Origin: Lacinutrix sp. C3R15
Lineage (GTDB): Bacteria > Bacteroidota > Bacteroidia > Flavobacteriales > Flavobacteriaceae
Direction of reading: 5' to 3'
Assembly: GCF_018860825.1 (NCBI RefSeq)
Contig: NZ_JAHKPZ010000039.1
Location: forward strand, 1-51,922
Length of the DNA: 51,922 nucleotides
Position numbers and translations under genes: made by a program. Each line of letters starts with the position of its first letter. Position 1 is the first letter of the stretch. The notes below the pieces were generated by a model that did no database searches, had not been told where the DNA came from, and saw only the letters and a program-made list of their open reading frames with translations. Positions 32,760 through 39,414 of the stretch are shown one piece after another.

Positions 32760-34832
32760 TTATAAACAGGTATAACATTCTCCTTCCAAATTAAATAACT
32801 CTCCTACTTCATTTGGACTTAAAGTTCTTTTATACACTCTTAAATCATCAAGATGACCAACAAATCCTTCCCCTATAATATATCTATCTGAAGCTTGAGA
32901 ACCAATATTTAGACTTGAGTTTTCATCGATATTTCTTTGTACACCATCTCTATATAGTCTAACGGTATTATCCGCATCTACTGTTAGTACTAGATGATGC
33001 CAATTGGTGTTTTCCCATGCTACATCTACTTCACCATTCCAGTCATTATCCCAAAGAGAAAAACTTGTATTATCTGCAAATAAAGGCGTATTTAAATCAT
33101 AAACTCCCAATTGAAACCCTTGTGTTGCATTTCCTGGTGATCTAAAAAACAGTTCTAAATCTCCTGCCGTTGTATTTTGCATTTTAAACCATAAACTTAT
33201 AGAAAAACTATCTCCTTGTATCAGTTGACTGTTTGTATTCACAGGGATTTCTAATGTATCATTTCCTGAAAAAGCTATAGCACATGAAGAATTCCCTGCT
33301 CTATCTTCTACAAATGTGTTGGTAACGTTTTCTGTATTAAAACCACTTATTAAATCGTGAGCTTCTTCTGCAAAAGGCATATATATAACCAAATCGTTTA
33401 TTAAAACTTCTGGATTGTTACAATCTTGACAATCTTGCTCGAGCTCCAAAATGATTATATTACCTGAATTTGTTTCCTGACTAAAGATAAATGCATCTTC
33501 TTCACATCCCAAAAGCAACCATTCTCCATTTAATAAATCAAAAGAAGCCAATCCGCCAATAGTTAATGCATAACTAGAATTAGTTTCAATAAGCGTCCAA
33601 GAACCAACTTCTGTAACAGCAAGTTCTCCATTAACAATTACTTCTCCATTAGCTTCAAACAGTAAATAATTTTCATCTAAAATATTATCAGAAGCGTCAT
33701 AAGTATATGCTTCTATCTCACATTGCAATAACAAGCCTTCTAATTCGGCAAGGTTTACATTACAATCTTCTATCGCATCATTTTCGCAATCCTGTTCTAA
33801 CACTAAACTATTATTTTCATTAAAAAATTCAAATCTATCATCATCACATGAAATCATTTCCCAAACTAAATTTAAAGACGCATATGGTTCTAAATTAAAC
33901 TCTAGGTTTAAAGAAGTAATATTGCTACCTGAAGACAAGCTCCAAGTTCCTGTAGTTACTAAATCACCAGTTACATCGTTGTAAATTTCTGCGGTTCCAT
34001 CTTCTAAAAAGACAAAATGTTCTGCAACAAAAGTTGCATATAAGCTTGTAACATAATTCCAATGACATTCTATCAATGAAGACGCAATATATGCTTCAGC
34101 ACAATCATCATCGTCATTCCAATCGTAATCATCATCTTCATCACAAGTATCTTCTGCAGCTTCAATGGCAGCTTCCATTTCTGCGTTGTTTTCTACAACA
34201 ACGGTATCTCCGTTAGCTAACAACATGGTAACTGGGAAGTTTATACTAGCTAAAACGCCTCCTTCTAAATTTTCAATAAAAGTATATAAGGTTTCATCAT
34301 CCTGTATGGTAACCGTATCTATAACCTGAAAAGCTGTATTATATATAGAAATGAAAATAGGAAATTGAAAATCGATACATTCCATATCATCATCTTCTTC
34401 ATCTTCGTCATTACAATTCTCTATTTGTGCTTCTAATTCGGTTTGATTATTAATAACTAATTGGGTATAATTATTAAAAATAACCGTTATTGGAAACGTT
34501 ATTTCTACGTCGTCGTCGTCATTTGAAAAAGCATCTAAAATAGACTCTAAAGCATCAAAGTCTGTAATACTTTCTATGGTTATTGTTACACCGTTTGCAG
34601 TAACGGTTACTGGCAAAGCAACCTCTAGACAATTGGCATAATCGATAATATTATCTATAGAACCATCATTAGAAGCAACATTACGCATTAAATTAGCCAA
34701 ATTGGAATTTGGCGCAATCGTTTCTTCATTATCTGGGTCTGTAATCTCTACTACTTCTTCTTGACATGCCGAAAATAACAACAAAAAAAGCAAGGAGAAA
34801 AAAAAGAAAAATTTTAACTGGTTGGTTTTCAT
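32760..34832 (-). CDS. Acidic, probably surface-exposed lipoprotein with beta-beta-alpha repeats and C-terminal LamG domain
   Basis: A 690-residue lipoprotein (signal to LLFSACQEE; Cys23). The acidic residues after the Cys (QEEVVE) resemble the Bacteroidota lipoprotein surface-export signal. Four similar modules of about 35 residues cover roughly 68-102, 108-140, 152-190 and 196-230, each FP-[IV]-T-x5-N followed by an acidic helix (FPITVIFNNYTQLVI, TELEAQIENC; FPVTMLLANGDTVVV, AEMEAAIEAAEDTC). Very acidic linkers join them (DEDEEDDD, DEDDDYDWNDDDDC). Two lipocalin-like repeats follow (about 253-348 and 355-468), then a LamG/concanavalin-like domain (about 480-683: SFSISLWFKMQNT, WHHLVLTVDADNTVRLYRDG, HLDDLRVYKRTLSPNEV). 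No enzyme motif is seen; glycan or ligand binding is likely. It diverges from the sigma-factor gene and shares a promoter motif with fecR. Confidence 0.88.
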   Translation of the reverse strand: MKTNQLKFFFFFSLLFLLLFSACQEEVVEITDPDNEETIAPNSNLANLMRNVASNDGSIDNIIDYANCLEVALPVTVTANGVTITIESITDFDALESILDAFSNDDDDVEITFPITVIFNNYTQLVINNQTELEAQIENCNDEDEEDDDMECIDFQFPIFISIYNTAFQVIDTVTIQDDETLYTFIENLEGGVLASINFPVTMLLANGDTVVVENNAEMEAAIEAAEDTCDEDDDYDWNDDDDCAEAYIASSLIECHWNYVTSLYATFVAEHFVFLEDGTAEIYNDVTGDLVTTGTWSLSSGSNITSLNLEFNLEPYASLNLVWEMISCDDDRFEFFNENNSLVLEQDCENDAIEDCNVNLAELEGLLLQCEIEAYTYDASDNILDENYLLFEANGEVIVNGELAVTEVGSWTLIETNSSYALTIGGLASFDLLNGEWLLLGCEEDAFIFSQETNSGNIIILELEQDCQDCNNPEVLINDLVIYMPFAEEAHDLISGFNTENVTNTFVEDRAGNSSCAIAFSGNDTLEIPVNTNSQLIQGDSFSISLWFKMQNTTAGDLELFFRSPGNATQGFQLGVYDLNTPLFADNTSFSLWDNDWNGEVDVAWENTNWHHLVLTVDADNTVRLYRDGVQRNIDENSSLNIGSQASDRYIIGEGFVGHLDDLRVYKRTLSPNEVGELFNLEGECYTCL

Positions 34833-34894: not shown

Positions 34895-34928
34895 TATAAC
34901 ATCTTCGCTTAAAAAATTCCTACCTTGA
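34895..34928 (-). promoter_or_regulatory. Candidate ECF-sigma promoter of the LamG lipoprotein gene
   Basis: On the minus strand TCAAGGTAGGAATTTTT (34928-34912) is followed after ten bases by TGTTATA (34901-34895), 62 bases before the lipoprotein ATG. The same 17 bases, the same spacing and the same 7 bases occur upstream of fecR at 35525-35558 in the matching orientation to the gene. This does not look like the housekeeping TTG/TAnnTTTG promoter. Confidence 0.75.
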
Positions 34929-34955
34929 CTTTTAAAAAAAATTATTCCTACTTTG
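34925..34955 (+). promoter_or_regulatory. Possible housekeeping promoter of the ECF sigma gene
   Basis: TTG (34925-34927), 21 bases, then TACTTTG, which lacks one T of TAnnTTTG. It ends 21 bases before the ATG at 34977 and overlaps the lipoprotein-side motif by a few bases on the other strand. The fit is imperfect. Confidence 0.4.
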
Positions 34956-34976
34956 CAGAAACCTTTTTATCTATTA

Positions 34977-35492
34977 ATGCAAAAGTCTTTAAACAATAAT
35001 GTCTGTAATGAAAATCGTTTCAACGCCCTATTTAACAAATATGCTAAAGACTTGCATCACTTTTTGTATTATAAATTTGGGGATCATTTAAACCCTAAAG
35101 ACAAAGTACAAGATGCTTTTATAAAACTTTGGCAAAATTGCAATACTGTTTCTCCTGAAAAAGCAAAAAGCTATTTATATACAGTAGCAAATAATTTAAT
35201 GCTGAATGCCGTTGCACATCAAAAAGTAGTTTTAAAACATCAGAAAATAAAACCCTCAGAGCATTCTAATGAGTCGCCAGAATTTTTAATGGAAGAAAAG
35301 GAATACCGCAAAAAACTAGAAAATGCCATTGCTAATTTAACCGAAGCACAACGTGTTGCTTTTTTAATGAATCGTGTGGAAGGAAAACGATTTAAAGAAA
35401 TTGCATCGCTTTTAGATATTAGCACCAAAGCAGTTGAAAAACGAATTTATGGTGCTTTAAAAAAATTACGAGAAGATATTGAAGAATTATGA
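34977..35492 (+). CDS. ECF-type RNA polymerase sigma factor
   Basis: A 171-residue sigma-70 family protein of the ECF group. The start is ATG 34977 (MQKSLNNNVCNENRF); a TTG at 34953 lies inside the promoter region and is rejected. Region 2 (about 15-80) shows NALFNKYAKDLHHFLYYKFG, DKVQDAFIKLWQN and KAKSYLYTVANNLMLN. Region 4 (about 115-165) shows LTEAQRVAFLMNRVEGKRFKEIASLLDISTKAVEKRIYGALKKLR, whose helix-turn-helix contacts the -35 element. The downstream fecR and TonB-receptor genes mark it as the FecI-like member of a cell-surface signalling triad. Its own promoter looks housekeeping-like, while the shared motif lies upstream of its likely targets. Confidence 0.95.
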   Translation: MQKSLNNNVCNENRFNALFNKYAKDLHHFLYYKFGDHLNPKDKVQDAFIKLWQNCNTVSPEKAKSYLYTVANNLMLNAVAHQKVVLKHQKIKPSEHSNESPEFLMEEKEYRKKLENAIANLTEAQRVAFLMNRVEGKRFKEIASLLDISTKAVEKRIYGALKKLREDIEEL

Positions 35493-35524
35493 TTTCTGTT
35501 TTTACAGCAATAATAGTTTTAATT

Positions 35525-35558
35525 TCAAGGTAGGAATTTTTAACCCCTACTTGTTATA
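35525..35558 (+). promoter_or_regulatory. Candidate ECF-sigma promoter of the fecR-receptor operon
   Basis: TCAAGGTAGGAATTTTT (35525-35541), ten bases, TGTTATA (35552-35558), then 17 bases to the fecR ATG. It is identical in both blocks and in spacing to the site upstream of the LamG lipoprotein. The two sites therefore form a 17-base inverted repeat flanking the sigma-factor gene. Confidence 0.75.
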
Positions 35559-35575
35559 TACTTGAATAGCATACA

Positions 35576-36472
35576 ATGAATAAAGAAGAATTAATTTTAA
35601 AATGGTTAGATAACGATTTAAGTCCGAAAGAACTTCAAGCATTTGAAGCGCTTGAAGATTATGAGTCGTTAACTAAATTAGCCAAATACAGCAAAGGTTT
35701 TAAGGCTCCAGAGTTTGATACAGAGGCAGTTTTAGAAACCACCTTACGCGGTATAAATGCGAAAAAATCGACTACAAAGAAATGGTTTCAACCCATGCTA
35801 AAAGTCGCAGCTATTCTAGCTATTTGTTTGGGTATCTACTATTACACCACAACTTTAGACCATTCTTTTACTACAGATTTTGCTGAAAAATCGAGTATCG
35901 AGCTTCCTGATCATTCCTTGGTACATTTAAATGCAATTTCTAAAATTAGCTTCAATAAAAAGAATTGGAATACAAACAGAACCATTACTCTAGATGGCGA
36001 AGCTTTCTTTAAAGTGGAAAAAGGTAGCACCTTCCATGTAAAAACAGACGCAGGAACGATAACCGTTTTAGGTACTCAATTTAATGTAAAACAACGTGAA
36101 GATTATTTTGAAGTAGTTTGTTACGAAGGCAGCGTGCAAATAAATTACAATACCGGAAAGTCTATTTTAAAAGCTGGAGATTCTTTTTTAATATTAAATG
36201 GAAAAGTGACAACAGCTACAACTACTTTCGTCAAACAACCAGAATGGCTAAGCCATATTAGTGCTTTTTCAAGCGTACCTTTAAACAAGGTTTTAGAAGA
36301 ATTTGAAAGACAATACCATGTGCAATTTGATACTACCAATATTGAAACCAATACCTTATATACAGGAAAATTTACACATAAAAACATAGACATTGCACTA
36401 AAATCGATTACGCAACCTTTACAATTAAGCTATACAAAAACAAACAAAACCATTATTTTATCGCGTGAATAA
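35576..36472 (+). CDS. FecR family anti-sigma factor
   Basis: A 298-residue single-span membrane protein that should hold the ECF sigma factor until the receptor signals. The cytoplasmic N-terminus (1-72) carries the short sigma-binding region (LILKWLDNDLSPKELQAFEALEDYESL). One membrane segment covers about 73-92 (MLKVAAILAICLGIYYY). The periplasmic FecR domain follows (about 100-200: IELPDHSLVHLNAISKISF, RTITLDGEAFFKVEKG, TVLGTQFNVKQRED). A DUF4974 domain covers about 229-297 (FSSVPLNKVLEEFERQYHVQF, TGKFTHKNIDIALKSITQPLQL) and probably contacts the STN domain of the receptor. The stop overlaps the receptor start by eight bases. Confidence 0.95.
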   Translation: MNKEELILKWLDNDLSPKELQAFEALEDYESLTKLAKYSKGFKAPEFDTEAVLETTLRGINAKKSTTKKWFQPMLKVAAILAICLGIYYYTTTLDHSFTTDFAEKSSIELPDHSLVHLNAISKISFNKKNWNTNRTITLDGEAFFKVEKGSTFHVKTDAGTITVLGTQFNVKQREDYFEVVCYEGSVQINYNTGKSILKAGDSFLILNGKVTTATTTFVKQPEWLSHISAFSSVPLNKVLEEFERQYHVQFDTTNIETNTLYTGKFTHKNIDIALKSITQPLQLSYTKTNKTIILSRE

Positions 36473-38759
36473 ACCGCTAAAAATTGCGCTATTATTAATT
36501 TTCTTTTTTTTGGGTTACTTGACTGTTTTTTCACAAAACAAAAAGCTACCTCTAGCGCAAGTATTGACTATAATCGAGCAACAATTTAAAGTTAGTTTTT
36601 CTTATGCAGATAGCACGATTAAAGATATTGAAGTGTTTTTGGATAGCCATGAAAACTTAGAGGTTATTCTAACTGCTTTAGAAAAACAAACACAGTTAAA
36701 ATTCAACAAATTAAACAACCAGTTTATCACTATTGCAAGACAAGAAGTGCAACCTTTTACCATTCAAAGGTTAGAAGAAGTAGTAATTACGAATTATTTA
36801 ACCACAGGAATAAACAAAAACACTTCGGGAAGTATTACCATCAAACCAGAGAAATTTGGTATTTTACCAGGTCTAATAGAACCCGATGTGTTGCAAACCA
36901 TCCAAGCGCTTCCTGGCGTTTTAAGTGTAGATGAAACGGTTTCTAATATTAATATTAGAGGCGGAACACACGACCAAAACCTCATACTTTGGGATGGTAT
37001 TAAAATGTATCAATCTGGTCATTTTTTCGGACTTATCTCCGCATTTAATCCGTATTTAACCAACCAAGTAAATGTATCTAAAAACGGAACCTCAGCACAA
37101 TATGGAGATGGTGTTTCTAGTGTTATCGATATGCAATTATCTAAAACCCTTCAAAATGATTTTAAAGCTGGAGCTGGTTTTAATTTAGTGCATGCCGATG
37201 GATACATAAAAACGCCAATTGGTAAACATGCAGAGCTACAACTTTCAGTAAGACGTTCGTTTACCGATTTTGTAACTGCTCCAACTTACAAGCAGTATTT
37301 TAAACGCATTTTTCAAGATTCGGATTTTGAAAGTAATCAGGAAGAACAAAACAATACTATATCTAAAAACGAAAACTTTTACTTTTATGATTTCTCAGGA
37401 AAATTGCTAGTAAACCTTTCTAAAAAAGACAAACTCCAAATTAGCTTTTTAACCATTCATAACAATTTAGATTACGAAGAGCAATCTACCATAAACAATG
37501 TTAATGAATCTTTAAACAGTAGCCTTATTCAGCGTAATTTGGCTAGTGGCATTAACTACACAAGAACATGGAGTTCTAAATTAACGTCTAACCTACACGC
37601 ATCCATTTCTAACTATAAATTAGATGCCAAGAATTTTGACATTCTGAATAACCAACGTTTAATTCAAGAAAACAAAGTATTTGATAGCGCTATAAAACTA
37701 GACACAAAATGGGATGTTAATAAAAACACGAACCTTCAAATTGGCTATCAGTTTTTTGAAGTCGGCATTAGTAATTTAGAAAACGTTAATAATCCAGTAT
37801 TTAGAAGTTATATCAAGGAAGTTATTAGAAGTCATTCTGCTTTCGCTGAAGGACAACTAATATCTAACAACAAAAACACCAATGCAAAAGCGGGAATACG
37901 ATTTAATTTCATTCCAAAATTAGATGCCTTTTTAGCAGAACCAAGAATAAGTTTTAGCCAACGGTTTGCCAATCATTTTAGAGTAGAACTTCTTGGAGAA
38001 TTTAAGAGTCAAACCTCCTCGCAAATCATTGATTTACAGGATGATTTTTTAGGAATAGAAAAACGTCGTTGGATTTTAGCAAACAACACCGATATTCCAA
38101 TCATAAAAAGTAAACAAGCATCTTTAGGATTAAACTACAACAAGAATAAATTACTAATTAGTGCGGAAGTTTTTTATAAAGAAGTAGATGGTATCACCAC
38201 CAGAAGCCAAGGCTTTCAAAACCAGTTTCAGTATGTAAAAGCAATAGGAGGCTATCAAGTAAAAGGAATTGATTTTTTAATTCATAAACAGTTTACCAAT
38301 TTCAATACATGGTTAAGTTATTCGTATAGCAAAAACGATTACAGGTTTAAGAACTTGAATAACGAAAACCCTTTTCCTAATAATGCAGACATCCCACACG
38401 CTGTTAATTTTTCTAACACCTACACAGTAAACAAATTCCAGTTTGCCTTAGGTGTAAATTGGCATTCTGGAAAGCCTTATACCACACCTGACAACACCAT
38501 TACAGCTGGTAAAATTAATTACAGTTTACCAAACAATAATTCTTTAAAAGATTATCTACGTGTCGATTTTTCGGCAACTAAAGATTTAAAAATTTCGGAA
38601 GGAATTCGTGCTAAAATTGGCGCTTCTGTTTGGAATCTTTTTAACACTAAAAACACGATTAACAGATACTATGTTTTAGATACAGATGACAACATTTCGA
38701 AAGTAGAAAACCAATCGTTAGGCATTACACCAAATTTAAGCTTTCGTTTGTATTTTTAG
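36465..38759 (+). CDS. TonB-dependent outer-membrane receptor with N-terminal STN signalling domain
   Basis: A 764-residue receptor starting at GTG 36465, inside the end of fecR. After the signal peptide (IALLLIFFFLGYLTVFSQ) comes an STN domain (about 28-92: LPLAQVLTIIEQQFKVSFSYADS), which relays the ligand signal to FecR. A TonB-box-like EEVVIT lies at 104-109. The plug domain (about 125-230) shows LQTIQALPGVLSVDETVSNINIRGG and VSKNGTSAQYGDGVSSVIDM, and the rest is a 22-strand beta-barrel ending in FRLYF with a terminal aromatic. There is no SusD partner. The ligand is unknown; an iron compound, peptide or glycan are all possible. It ends one base from the convergent gene. Confidence 0.95.
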   Translation: MNKPLKIALLLIFFFLGYLTVFSQNKKLPLAQVLTIIEQQFKVSFSYADSTIKDIEVFLDSHENLEVILTALEKQTQLKFNKLNNQFITIARQEVQPFTIQRLEEVVITNYLTTGINKNTSGSITIKPEKFGILPGLIEPDVLQTIQALPGVLSVDETVSNINIRGGTHDQNLILWDGIKMYQSGHFFGLISAFNPYLTNQVNVSKNGTSAQYGDGVSSVIDMQLSKTLQNDFKAGAGFNLVHADGYIKTPIGKHAELQLSVRRSFTDFVTAPTYKQYFKRIFQDSDFESNQEEQNNTISKNENFYFYDFSGKLLVNLSKKDKLQISFLTIHNNLDYEEQSTINNVNESLNSSLIQRNLASGINYTRTWSSKLTSNLHASISNYKLDAKNFDILNNQRLIQENKVFDSAIKLDTKWDVNKNTNLQIGYQFFEVGISNLENVNNPVFRSYIKEVIRSHSAFAEGQLISNNKNTNAKAGIRFNFIPKLDAFLAEPRISFSQRFANHFRVELLGEFKSQTSSQIIDLQDDFLGIEKRRWILANNTDIPIIKSKQASLGLNYNKNKLLISAEVFYKEVDGITTRSQGFQNQFQYVKAIGGYQVKGIDFLIHKQFTNFNTWLSYSYSKNDYRFKNLNNENPFPNNADIPHAVNFSNTYTVNKFQFALGVNWHSGKPYTTPDNTITAGKINYSLPNNNSLKDYLRVDFSATKDLKISEGIRAKIGASVWNLFNTKNTINRYYVLDTDDNISKVENQSLGITPNLSFRLYF

Positions 38760-38760
38760 A

Positions 38761-39414
38761 TTATAAATATTCTTGATACTGCATTACTCTAAAATCAAAC
38801 GTATTAAATTTAGGATTACTTGCTTTAAGTTGTTTATATAGAGGCATACTGCCAATGGCTCTATTTGCAGATCCTGAGGAAGAAGTTAAAGAAACCGTTT
38901 TGATTATTCTTTCTTGCAAATAAAACTGATGCACTCTTGGCACTTCATTAGAAACTAAATTTAATTTTATATTATATTCTTTTATATGCTTTCTAAAAAA
39001 ATATTCAGGTCCGTTTTTAGAGTTTCCACCAATAAACAAAAGAGTTTCAATGGTTGGGTGTTTTTTTAAATAGCCAATAATGTTTCGAAGTTTAATGTTT
39101 TGCATACCCAAATCAGAAGCATCTATTTTTTCACGTTCGCAGGATGCAACAATATCGCAAACCCCTATTTTATGCTGTATAAGAAAAGCTTTTCGTTCGT
39201 TAATAGCTGCTTGTGAATTATCATAACGTAAATTTAAATTATGAATTTTATCTAGATACAGCCACAACGAATTATAGTAACTCCCATAACAGAAATGCAC
39301 GTCTTTTTCTAACAACTCACCAAGGCTAAATCTTGGTGGAGGAAGCGTGCCAACAATTAACTTTTTGGTGTCTTTTTGTATGAATGGCTGGTATGGATGT
39401 TTGTGTAAAAACAC
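38761..39414 (-). CDS. Possible uracil-DNA glycosylase superfamily protein
   Basis: A 217-residue protein that I place tentatively in the UDG/MUG fold superfamily. The N-terminal LIVGTLPPPRFS resembles the catalytic-loop strand of such enzymes (VGTxPP in place of GxxPG). CYGSYYNSLWLYLD resembles the YY-x-N-x-FW pocket motif, and the C-terminal LTSSSGSANRAIGS resembles the substrate-loop motif that ends in S-x-AN. IGVCDIVASCERE lies between them, where related proteins have a catalytic-region strand. It begins at a GTG that shares one base with the stop codon (TAG) of the upstream membrane gene. No substrate can be given. Confidence 0.65.
   Translation of the reverse strand: MFLHKHPYQPFIQKDTKKLIVGTLPPPRFSLGELLEKDVHFCYGSYYNSLWLYLDKIHNLNLRYDNSQAAINERKAFLIQHKIGVCDIVASCEREKIDASDLGMQNIKLRNIIGYLKKHPTIETLLFIGGNSKNGPEYFFRKHIKEYNIKLNLVSNEVPRVHQFYLQERIIKTVSLTSSSGSANRAIGSMPLYKQLKASNPKFNTFDFRVMQYQEYL

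Follow-up and report, generated by a model that had tools for sequence, protein, structure and literature searches.

Two identical sites that point outward from an ECF sigma factor gene are, with a probability that we put at about 0.87 from the sequence comparisons described below, promoters read by the sigma factor encoded between them. They would belong to a FecI/FecR/TonB-receptor signalling cassette whose sigma factor drives its own anti-sigma gene. The cassette lies in a 51,922-nucleotide stretch of DNA from the marine bacterium Lacinutrix sp. C3R15 (the window, by which we mean this whole stretch at its full length), and its parts are as follows.

32760..34832, minus strand: divergent lipoprotein gene, 690 aa, with a conserved N-terminal part and a variable C-terminal part (LamG here)
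34895..34924, minus strand: predicted ECF promoter of the lipoprotein gene, with -35 GGTAGGA (34924-34918), a 16-nt spacer and -10 TGTTATA (34901-34895)
34949..34956, plus strand: TACTTTGC box, candidate -7 element of the sigma gene, fitting TAnnTTGY
34977..35492, plus strand: ECF sigma factor gene, 171 aa, Pfam regions 2 and 4, start set by alignment
35529..35558, plus strand: predicted ECF promoter of fecR-receptor, with -35 GGTAGGA (35529-35535), a 16-nt spacer and -10 TGTTATA (35552-35558)
35576..36472, plus strand: fecR, anti-sigma/sigma regulator gene, 298 aa, PF04773 at 70.6 bits (cut-off 24) and PF16344 at 36.4 bits (cut-off 24.4)
36465..38759, plus strand: TonB-dependent receptor gene, 764 aa, PF00593 at 52.7, PF07715 at 37.7 and PF16344 at 27.5 bits, all above cut-off

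Parts of the cassette

The sigma factor matches Sigma70_r2 (46 bits, cut-off 24) and Sigma70_r4_2 (54.1 bits, cut-off 25.7), by which it counts as an ECF sigma factor. Against NCBIfam TIGR02985 (Sig70_bacteroi1) it scores 117.4 bits, below the cut-off of 126.4, and is related to this family, not a member of it. Translation most likely starts at ATG 34977 and not at TTG 34953 of the listed open reading frame, because relatives align from the ATG, and an alignment from TTG 34953 runs across a TAA in four same-genus matches. A FecR-type gene stands beside the sigma gene, here and in 39 of the 39 loci compared below, and its translation displays a hydrophobic stretch on reading. The receptor gene overlaps the end of fecR by 8 bases and encodes an N-terminal domain of the signalling type, in which residues 27-89 match FecR_C (PF16344). 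These two features, a FecR-type gene next to the sigma gene and a receptor with an N-terminal signalling domain, are those looked for in cell-surface signalling systems. The gene at 38761-39414 (minus strand), which converges on the receptor gene, has a likeness to DNA-deoxyinosine glycosylase (TIGR04274) that at 48.3 bits falls short of the cut-off of 80.

The divergent lipoprotein carries a LamG domain (PF13385, residues 531-676, 72.6 bits). Since just 4 of the 27 aligned members have this domain, that of the window among them, it was rejected as a trait that defines the lipoprotein, and it seems to be a local addition. Invariant in the alignment of these 27 are C23, G57, D60, D64, P74, P114, C152, P158 and P200, and an acidic CDEDDD stretch is frequent in the N-terminal part. 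No Pfam family was assigned to the conserved N-terminal part of the window's lipoprotein, and a search of solved structures with the lipoprotein profile yielded nothing usable (best E of 0.04). The Pfam matches (E <= 0.01) of the 27 lipoproteins, the window's included, contain no SusD family, on which ground a SusCD polysaccharide-utilisation locus was discarded as a reading. At a threshold of 1e-10, the profile has matches in 19 of 148 genomes drawn from the phylum; those with matches starting in the N-terminal part are 14 genomes, namely 13 from the same family (own included) and one (G107) from another family of the class.

Twin sites and their near-uniqueness in the genome

The sequence-only reading had described two identical sites, with blocks of 17 and 7 bases separated by ten, that flank the sigma gene and aim at their respective genes. 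Both sites are exact, at 34895-34928 on the minus strand and 35525-35558 on the plus strand, and both face outward, toward the lipoprotein ATG at 34832 and the fecR ATG at 35576. With up to 3 mismatches allowed, the 17-N10-7 pattern has just these 2 matches in the whole window, and none arose in 100 dinucleotide-preserving shuffles of the window (0.00 expected by chance). On comparison with relatives, the conserved element is shorter than the 17-base left block first described. In 4 of 5 same-genus relatives, the fecR-side TCAAGG is replaced by TCGAGG or TTGAGG, and AGGAA by AGGAG or AGGGA; because they vary in this manner, TCAA and the base after AGGA lie outside the fixed core. The predicted motif is thus narrowed to GGTAGGA-N16-TGTTATA.

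A scan of the whole genome, also suggested by the sequence-only reading, was run on the own assembly (3,614,763 bases in 42 contigs) with the pattern minus its first two bases TC. The two window sites are the sole exact matches, accompanied by one site with 3 mismatches. The latter (C23:317679) was rejected as a target of the sigma factor, with 12.3 bits, an E of 0.8 and TATTATA as its -10 box; it sits upstream of a gene that is LuxR-like by translation. The assembly was also scanned with a promoter model built from sequence only, on 40 sites from other organisms with the own genome left out. Among the 150 of 12,036 first-look candidates that were scored, the fecR site ranks first (33.3 bits, E of 2e-7) and the lipoprotein site second, narrowly (21.6 bits, E of 9e-4), followed by C42:27224 with 20.0 bits and an E of 0.003. 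This third match, which covers model positions 1-25 only, lacks a -10 box and points into the last part of a coding sequence, was rejected as a target.

The relaxed pattern GGTAGGR-N16-TGTYWTA has exactly 4 exact matches in the own genome, the 2 sites described here and 2 on contig 1, on either side of the sigma gene of a paralogous cassette. Its matches with one mismatch number 10, compared to 6 for the reversed pattern, and a control pattern with a 17-N spacer has no exact match and 23 with one mismatch, compared to 14 for its reversed form. As far as the assembly and the scans reach, two promoters make up the regulon predicted for the window's sigma factor.

Conservation in relatives and co-variation with the linked sigma factor

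Of the 60 genomes searched, 24 (own included) contain relatives of the sigma factor at E <= 1e-20, and all 24 belong to the same family. Thirty-nine stretches were fetched, one of which (L035, around the site with 3 mismatches) has no sigma gene, giving 39 sigma loci together with the window. Reading the intergenic stretches of these 39 loci defined a core, AGG[AG]-N16-TGT[TC]. The gene layout is well kept, with fecR next on the same strand in 39 of 39 loci, a matched receptor in 38 and a divergent lipoprotein match on the opposite strand in 33. The core is present on the lipoprotein side in 34 loci, on the fecR side in 38 and on both in 34, while its reversed form is found in 0 and 0 and shuffled stretches contain it in 1.1 of 78. 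Among the five loci without a lipoprotein-side core, L044 has AGGT, L050 has a different box and L058 is situated where a contig ends, with no explanation for L061 and L072.

A held-out set was taken from another collection as the best 80 of 548 relatives, with sigma factors 64-97% identical and all of the window's own kind, and was trimmed to 73 loci (6 dropped for a sigma gene identical to that of an earlier locus, 1 cut). Relatives with the cassette occur, for example, in Winogradskyella, Lacinutrix and Psychroserpens. The core stands on the lipoprotein side in 70 of these, on the fecR side in 67 and on both sides in 64, compared to 1 and 0 for its reversed form and to 2.3 of 146 (maximum 7) in shuffles of the same stretches. 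All three misses on the lipoprotein side carry AGGT instead of AGG[AG]. As judged by eye, the six misses on the fecR side comprise L132 and L143, where the site starts at the edge of the searched stretch, L161, at a contig end, L118 and L129, where an additional ORF seems to follow the sigma gene, and L139, without explanation. In L118 and L129, the 230 bases examined on the fecR side contain no site. Twenty further loci have the core on both sides in 15 cases; it is missing from both sides in L238 and L241, from the fecR side in L239 and from the lipoprotein side in L245 and L253.

By the sequence-only reading, lack of motif conservation in relatives that keep the locus would have refuted it, and it withstands this check, with the core on both sides in 34 of 39 and 64 of 73 loci. 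Other spacers are rare. A spacer of 16 nt gives the 70 and 67 held-out matches, and spacers of 12-15 and 17-20 nt give 0-1; the 19 and 22 matches seen with a spacer of 21 nt are read as self-overlap of AGGGTAGG. The T-runs and AT-richness of intergenic DNA do make parts of the 17-base block cheap, but a chance likeness has against it the 0.00 matches expected from 100 shuffles, the conservation in held-out loci and the top two ranks of the genome scan. We regard it as refuted by the held-out loci and its probability as practically nil, in agreement with the original judgement that a chance match is very unlikely.

The logo of the held-out loci reads GGTAGG[A>G], a T-rich stretch and TGTT[A/T]TA, with conserved A positions 6-8 bases past the -10 box and TGAA on the fecR side. 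These A positions are taken as the probable region of the transcription start, and the start of fecR-receptor would lie near 35565-35566. In 51 of the 67 held-out loci, the last base of the -10 box is separated from the fecR ATG by 16-19 nt. The fourth box base on the lipoprotein side is not strict in the window's own class, being A in 0.81 and G in 0.19 of the held-out loci.

The boxes are conserved while the spacers between them are nearly free, with a within-locus identity of 0.449 compared to 0.430 when shuffled (p 0.04). This bears on the idea that the two sites form an inverted repeat for recombination, flipping the sigma cassette, or are copies kept similar by gene conversion, in which case their likeness would say little on transcription. 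The sites do form an inverted pair, with 42-nt arms that are 76% complementary, and 4 of 100 loci, as opposed to 22 of 9900 cross pairs, reach 90% likeness in the compared part of the spacer. Within loci, spacers and upstream flanks also show a slightly higher identity than after shuffling (p 0.04 and 0.02), yet the mean excess is small (spacer 0.449 vs 0.430; 0.395 vs 0.357; downstream 0.390 vs 0.386) with conserved boxes, and the sigma gene lies on the strand of fecR in 39 of 39 loci. A recombination repeat as the main function was rejected on the nearly free spacers and the constant orientation, and we consider it very improbable. An occasional, rare homogenisation between twin sites is likely from these comparisons. 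The four loci that reach this likeness, over the 11 nt of spacer compared, are L057, L064, L117 and L166, a hint of gene conversion or inversion between their twin sites.

Up to four related cassette copies per genome occur in the sample, and their -35 boxes vary between GTAGGA, GTAGGG, TCAGG and, more rarely, GGGTAAAT with 14-nt spacing. At the paralogous loci, GTAGGG is combined with TGTT or TGTC, and TCAGG (TAAGG in two cases on the fecR side) with TGTT; at L050, which coincides in position with L019, both sides carry GGGTAAAT with a spacing of 14 nt. For the 34 loci with both sites, we compared five features outside the fixed search letters, one of them a dinucleotide and two limited to two letters. 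They match within the locus 136 times, compared to 88.7 under free permutation and 107.9 under within-genome permutation, and 136 is reached in 0 of 5000 permutations either way. Taken singly, the base after TGT[TC] matches in 16 of 34 loci compared to 12.7 (p 0.11 free, 0.10 within-genome), and the weakest of the other four features has a p of 0.02 under within-genome permutation. The sigma tree explains the box classes with the minimum number of changes.

Since the two sites of a locus share their box variants, and these go with the sigma clade, the linked sigma factor, rather than an unrelated factor, appears to be the reader of the sites. Alternatively, both genes might be controlled by a DNA-binding regulator with the sites as its operators, or by a sigma factor whose gene lies elsewhere and whose promoters they are, leaving the linked sigma factor a bystander. 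Identical sites before two genes are equally expected of operators, and the genome has at least one related sigma factor with similar boxes. However, the variants follow the clade of the linked sigma factor and not the organism, and the rigid 16-nt spacing between GGTAGGA and TGTTATA, with 16-19 nt to the fecR ATG in most held-out loci, looks like that of -35 and -10 boxes rather than of an operator. We consider a bystander role of the linked sigma factor improbable. Promoters read by the linked sigma factor account for these features, and the suggestion of the sequence-only reading that it drives both the lipoprotein gene and the anti-sigma/receptor operon is supported on comparative grounds, by conservation, fixed orientation and spacing, and clade co-variation.

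The helix of region 4.2 that may contact the -35 box reads KAVEKRIY in the window (sigma residues 151-158). With four class labels set by hand, residues 155/158 are Y/Y in the sigma factors of the TCAGG class (8 of 8), K/Y in the GTAGGA class (19 of 19) and K/non-Y in the GTAGGG class (28 of 28). Applied to the fecR side of 16 of the 20 further loci, prediction from the helix gives the whole class correctly in 14 of 16, and the fourth base in 14 of 14 where the rule names one. It is weaker on the lipoprotein side, with 12 of 15 for the whole class and 12 of 13 for the fourth base; the rule gave no prediction for L238, L241 and L242, and L239 has no fecR-side site. As residue-level proof of a sigma-promoter code this association was rejected, the tree holding just 1 independent pair and the association being one or two changes. 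Because the classes amount to one or two evolutionary events, residues 155 and 158 are only candidates for readers of the box. Cross-reading between own-class and paralog boxes is possible, since these differ at few positions.

Proposed circuit, known systems and paralogous cassettes

The sigma gene itself probably has a separate promoter, other than the textbook housekeeping one. A site of the cassette's own type aimed at the sigma gene is absent from 39 of 39 and 72 of 73 loci. The view of the sequence-only reading, that it seems to have a housekeeping-like promoter, is supported in part only: the strict TTG-N16-23-TAnnTTTG pattern occurs upstream of the sigma gene in 0 of 73 held-out loci and was rejected, and TAnnTTTG alone occurs in 3 of 73, not above the 2.0 of shuffled stretches. 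Looser boxes of the TAnnTT[AG] type are found in its place, with TAnnTTGY in 17 of 73 (shuffled 2.7, reverse-complement 3) and TAnnTTAG in 27 of 73 (shuffled 1.7, reverse-complement 2). TAnnTTGY is motif SM5 in the main text of the Flavobacterium psychrophilum promoter map (PMC9723704).

From these comparisons we infer actual transcription from the two sites, its start points, a signal and feedback, as follows. The TonB-dependent receptor with its signalling domain would sense an external signal, which FecR would relay across the inner membrane, releasing or activating the sigma factor. RNA polymerase loaded with the sigma factor would then start the divergent lipoprotein gene and the fecR-receptor operon, while the sigma gene would be transcribed separately, from a different promoter without an ECF site. 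Because fecR is itself a predicted target of the sigma factor, more sigma activity would yield both more receptor (positive feedback) and more anti-sigma factor, acting as a brake that allows quick shut-off. The lipoprotein may be an outer-surface partner of the receptor.

By prediction, the cassette works like the Has system and belongs by its parts to FecR-type cell-surface signalling, and it differs in layout and boxes. In the haem system of Serratia marcescens (PMC9249621), HasI drives hasS and hasR through a shared -35 sequence and hasI is not autoregulated; iron-uptake sigma factors generally activate neither their own nor the anti-sigma gene, with HasI/hasS as the contrast. Like HasI (PMC9249621), the sigma factor here would drive the genes of a FecR-like anti-sigma factor and a receptor, and its own gene is predicted not to be autoregulated. 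In the HasI-HasS-HasR system, an extracellular partner, the hemophore HasA, acts with the receptor (PMC9249621); a possible partner here is the divergently transcribed lipoprotein. Unlike in Has, the fecR and receptor genes overlap here and two promoters flank the sigma gene. The boxes also differ, with TTTACGGGTTT in Has (PMC9249621) compared to GGTAGGA-N16-TGTTATA. A sigma factor that makes its own restraint would extend the HasI/HasS topology, which the same review treats as an exception among iron-uptake sigma factors (PMC9249621).

In Escherichia coli, according to the same review (PMC9249621), fecI and fecR are on one transcript under sigma-70/Fur control and the sigma-dependent promoter lies upstream of fecA. 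The FecI-FecR-FecA system has in common with the cassette an ECF sigma factor, a FecR regulator and a TonB-dependent receptor with a signalling domain; its sigma gene is not autoregulated (PMC9249621), as is predicted here. Unlike in E. coli fec, the predicted sigma-dependent promoter here stands between the sigma gene and fecR, and a second one serves the lipoprotein. SM6 of F. psychrophilum is likewise a predicted ECF promoter class in a member of the Flavobacteriaceae, but its -10 box is CGT and its genes are those of the T9SS, according to the main text of the promoter map (PMC9723704); the string GTAGG is absent from that main text. In the open-access literature searched by topic, mostly as abstracts, the GGTAGGA-N16-TGTTATA motif was not found, which is weak evidence of its novelty. 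In Bacteroides, ECF/anti-sigma pairs adjoin SusC-type TonB-dependent receptor genes. ECF/anti-sigma pairs of Bacteroides polysaccharide-utilisation loci are mentioned in PMC12596196. The cassette has the sigma/anti-sigma pair in common with these loci, and SusD was not found in the 27 lipoproteins here.

To our knowledge, promoters have yet to be established for most Bacteroidota ECF sigma factors. In this cassette, the genome sequence by itself suffices to recognise the target site, since a copy of it stands on either side of each sigma gene, and paralogous cassettes in one cell are natural experiments in sigma-promoter specificity. A more general proposal, which we advance tentatively and at a little short of even odds, is that flavobacteria have a family of self-contained sensor cassettes in which each sigma factor reads mainly its own inverted promoter pair. 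The -35 box and the helix (residues 155 and 158) would change together as a predictive code that insulates paralogs, and the divergent lipoprotein would be a surface co-receptor that sets what is sensed. Once tested, such a code would make regulons of this family predictable and might be a source of sigma/promoter parts for use in flavobacteria, in which tools made for other bacteria fail (main text of PMC9723704).

The paralogous cassette in the own genome (L034, contig 1, 492500-504500) has a sigma factor 50% identical to that of the window and sites of the GTAGGG/TGTCTTA type, two in tandem before the lipoprotein gene and one before fecR. A site with one mismatch (C1:494391) lies upstream of another ORF with a signal-peptide-like start. 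Past the lipoprotein gene, a second lipoprotein-like gene with a metalloprotease-like HEFGHVLGL motif and a gene for an outer-membrane-type protein were noted by eye. Elsewhere in the own genome (C42:126255; 1501-1530 of the stretch L109), a lone AGTAGGGTA-TGTCTTA site stands about 30 bases upstream of a gene for a coiled-coil-like protein of 299 aa, whose nearest matches in six same-genus genomes are 32-35% identical; the paralogous sigma factor may have a distant target in this site. In another locus (L047, 5704-5979), an ORF of 91 aa between the sigma and lipoprotein genes is preceded by a GTAGGG/TGTC-type site of another class, as if it were read by a different paralog.
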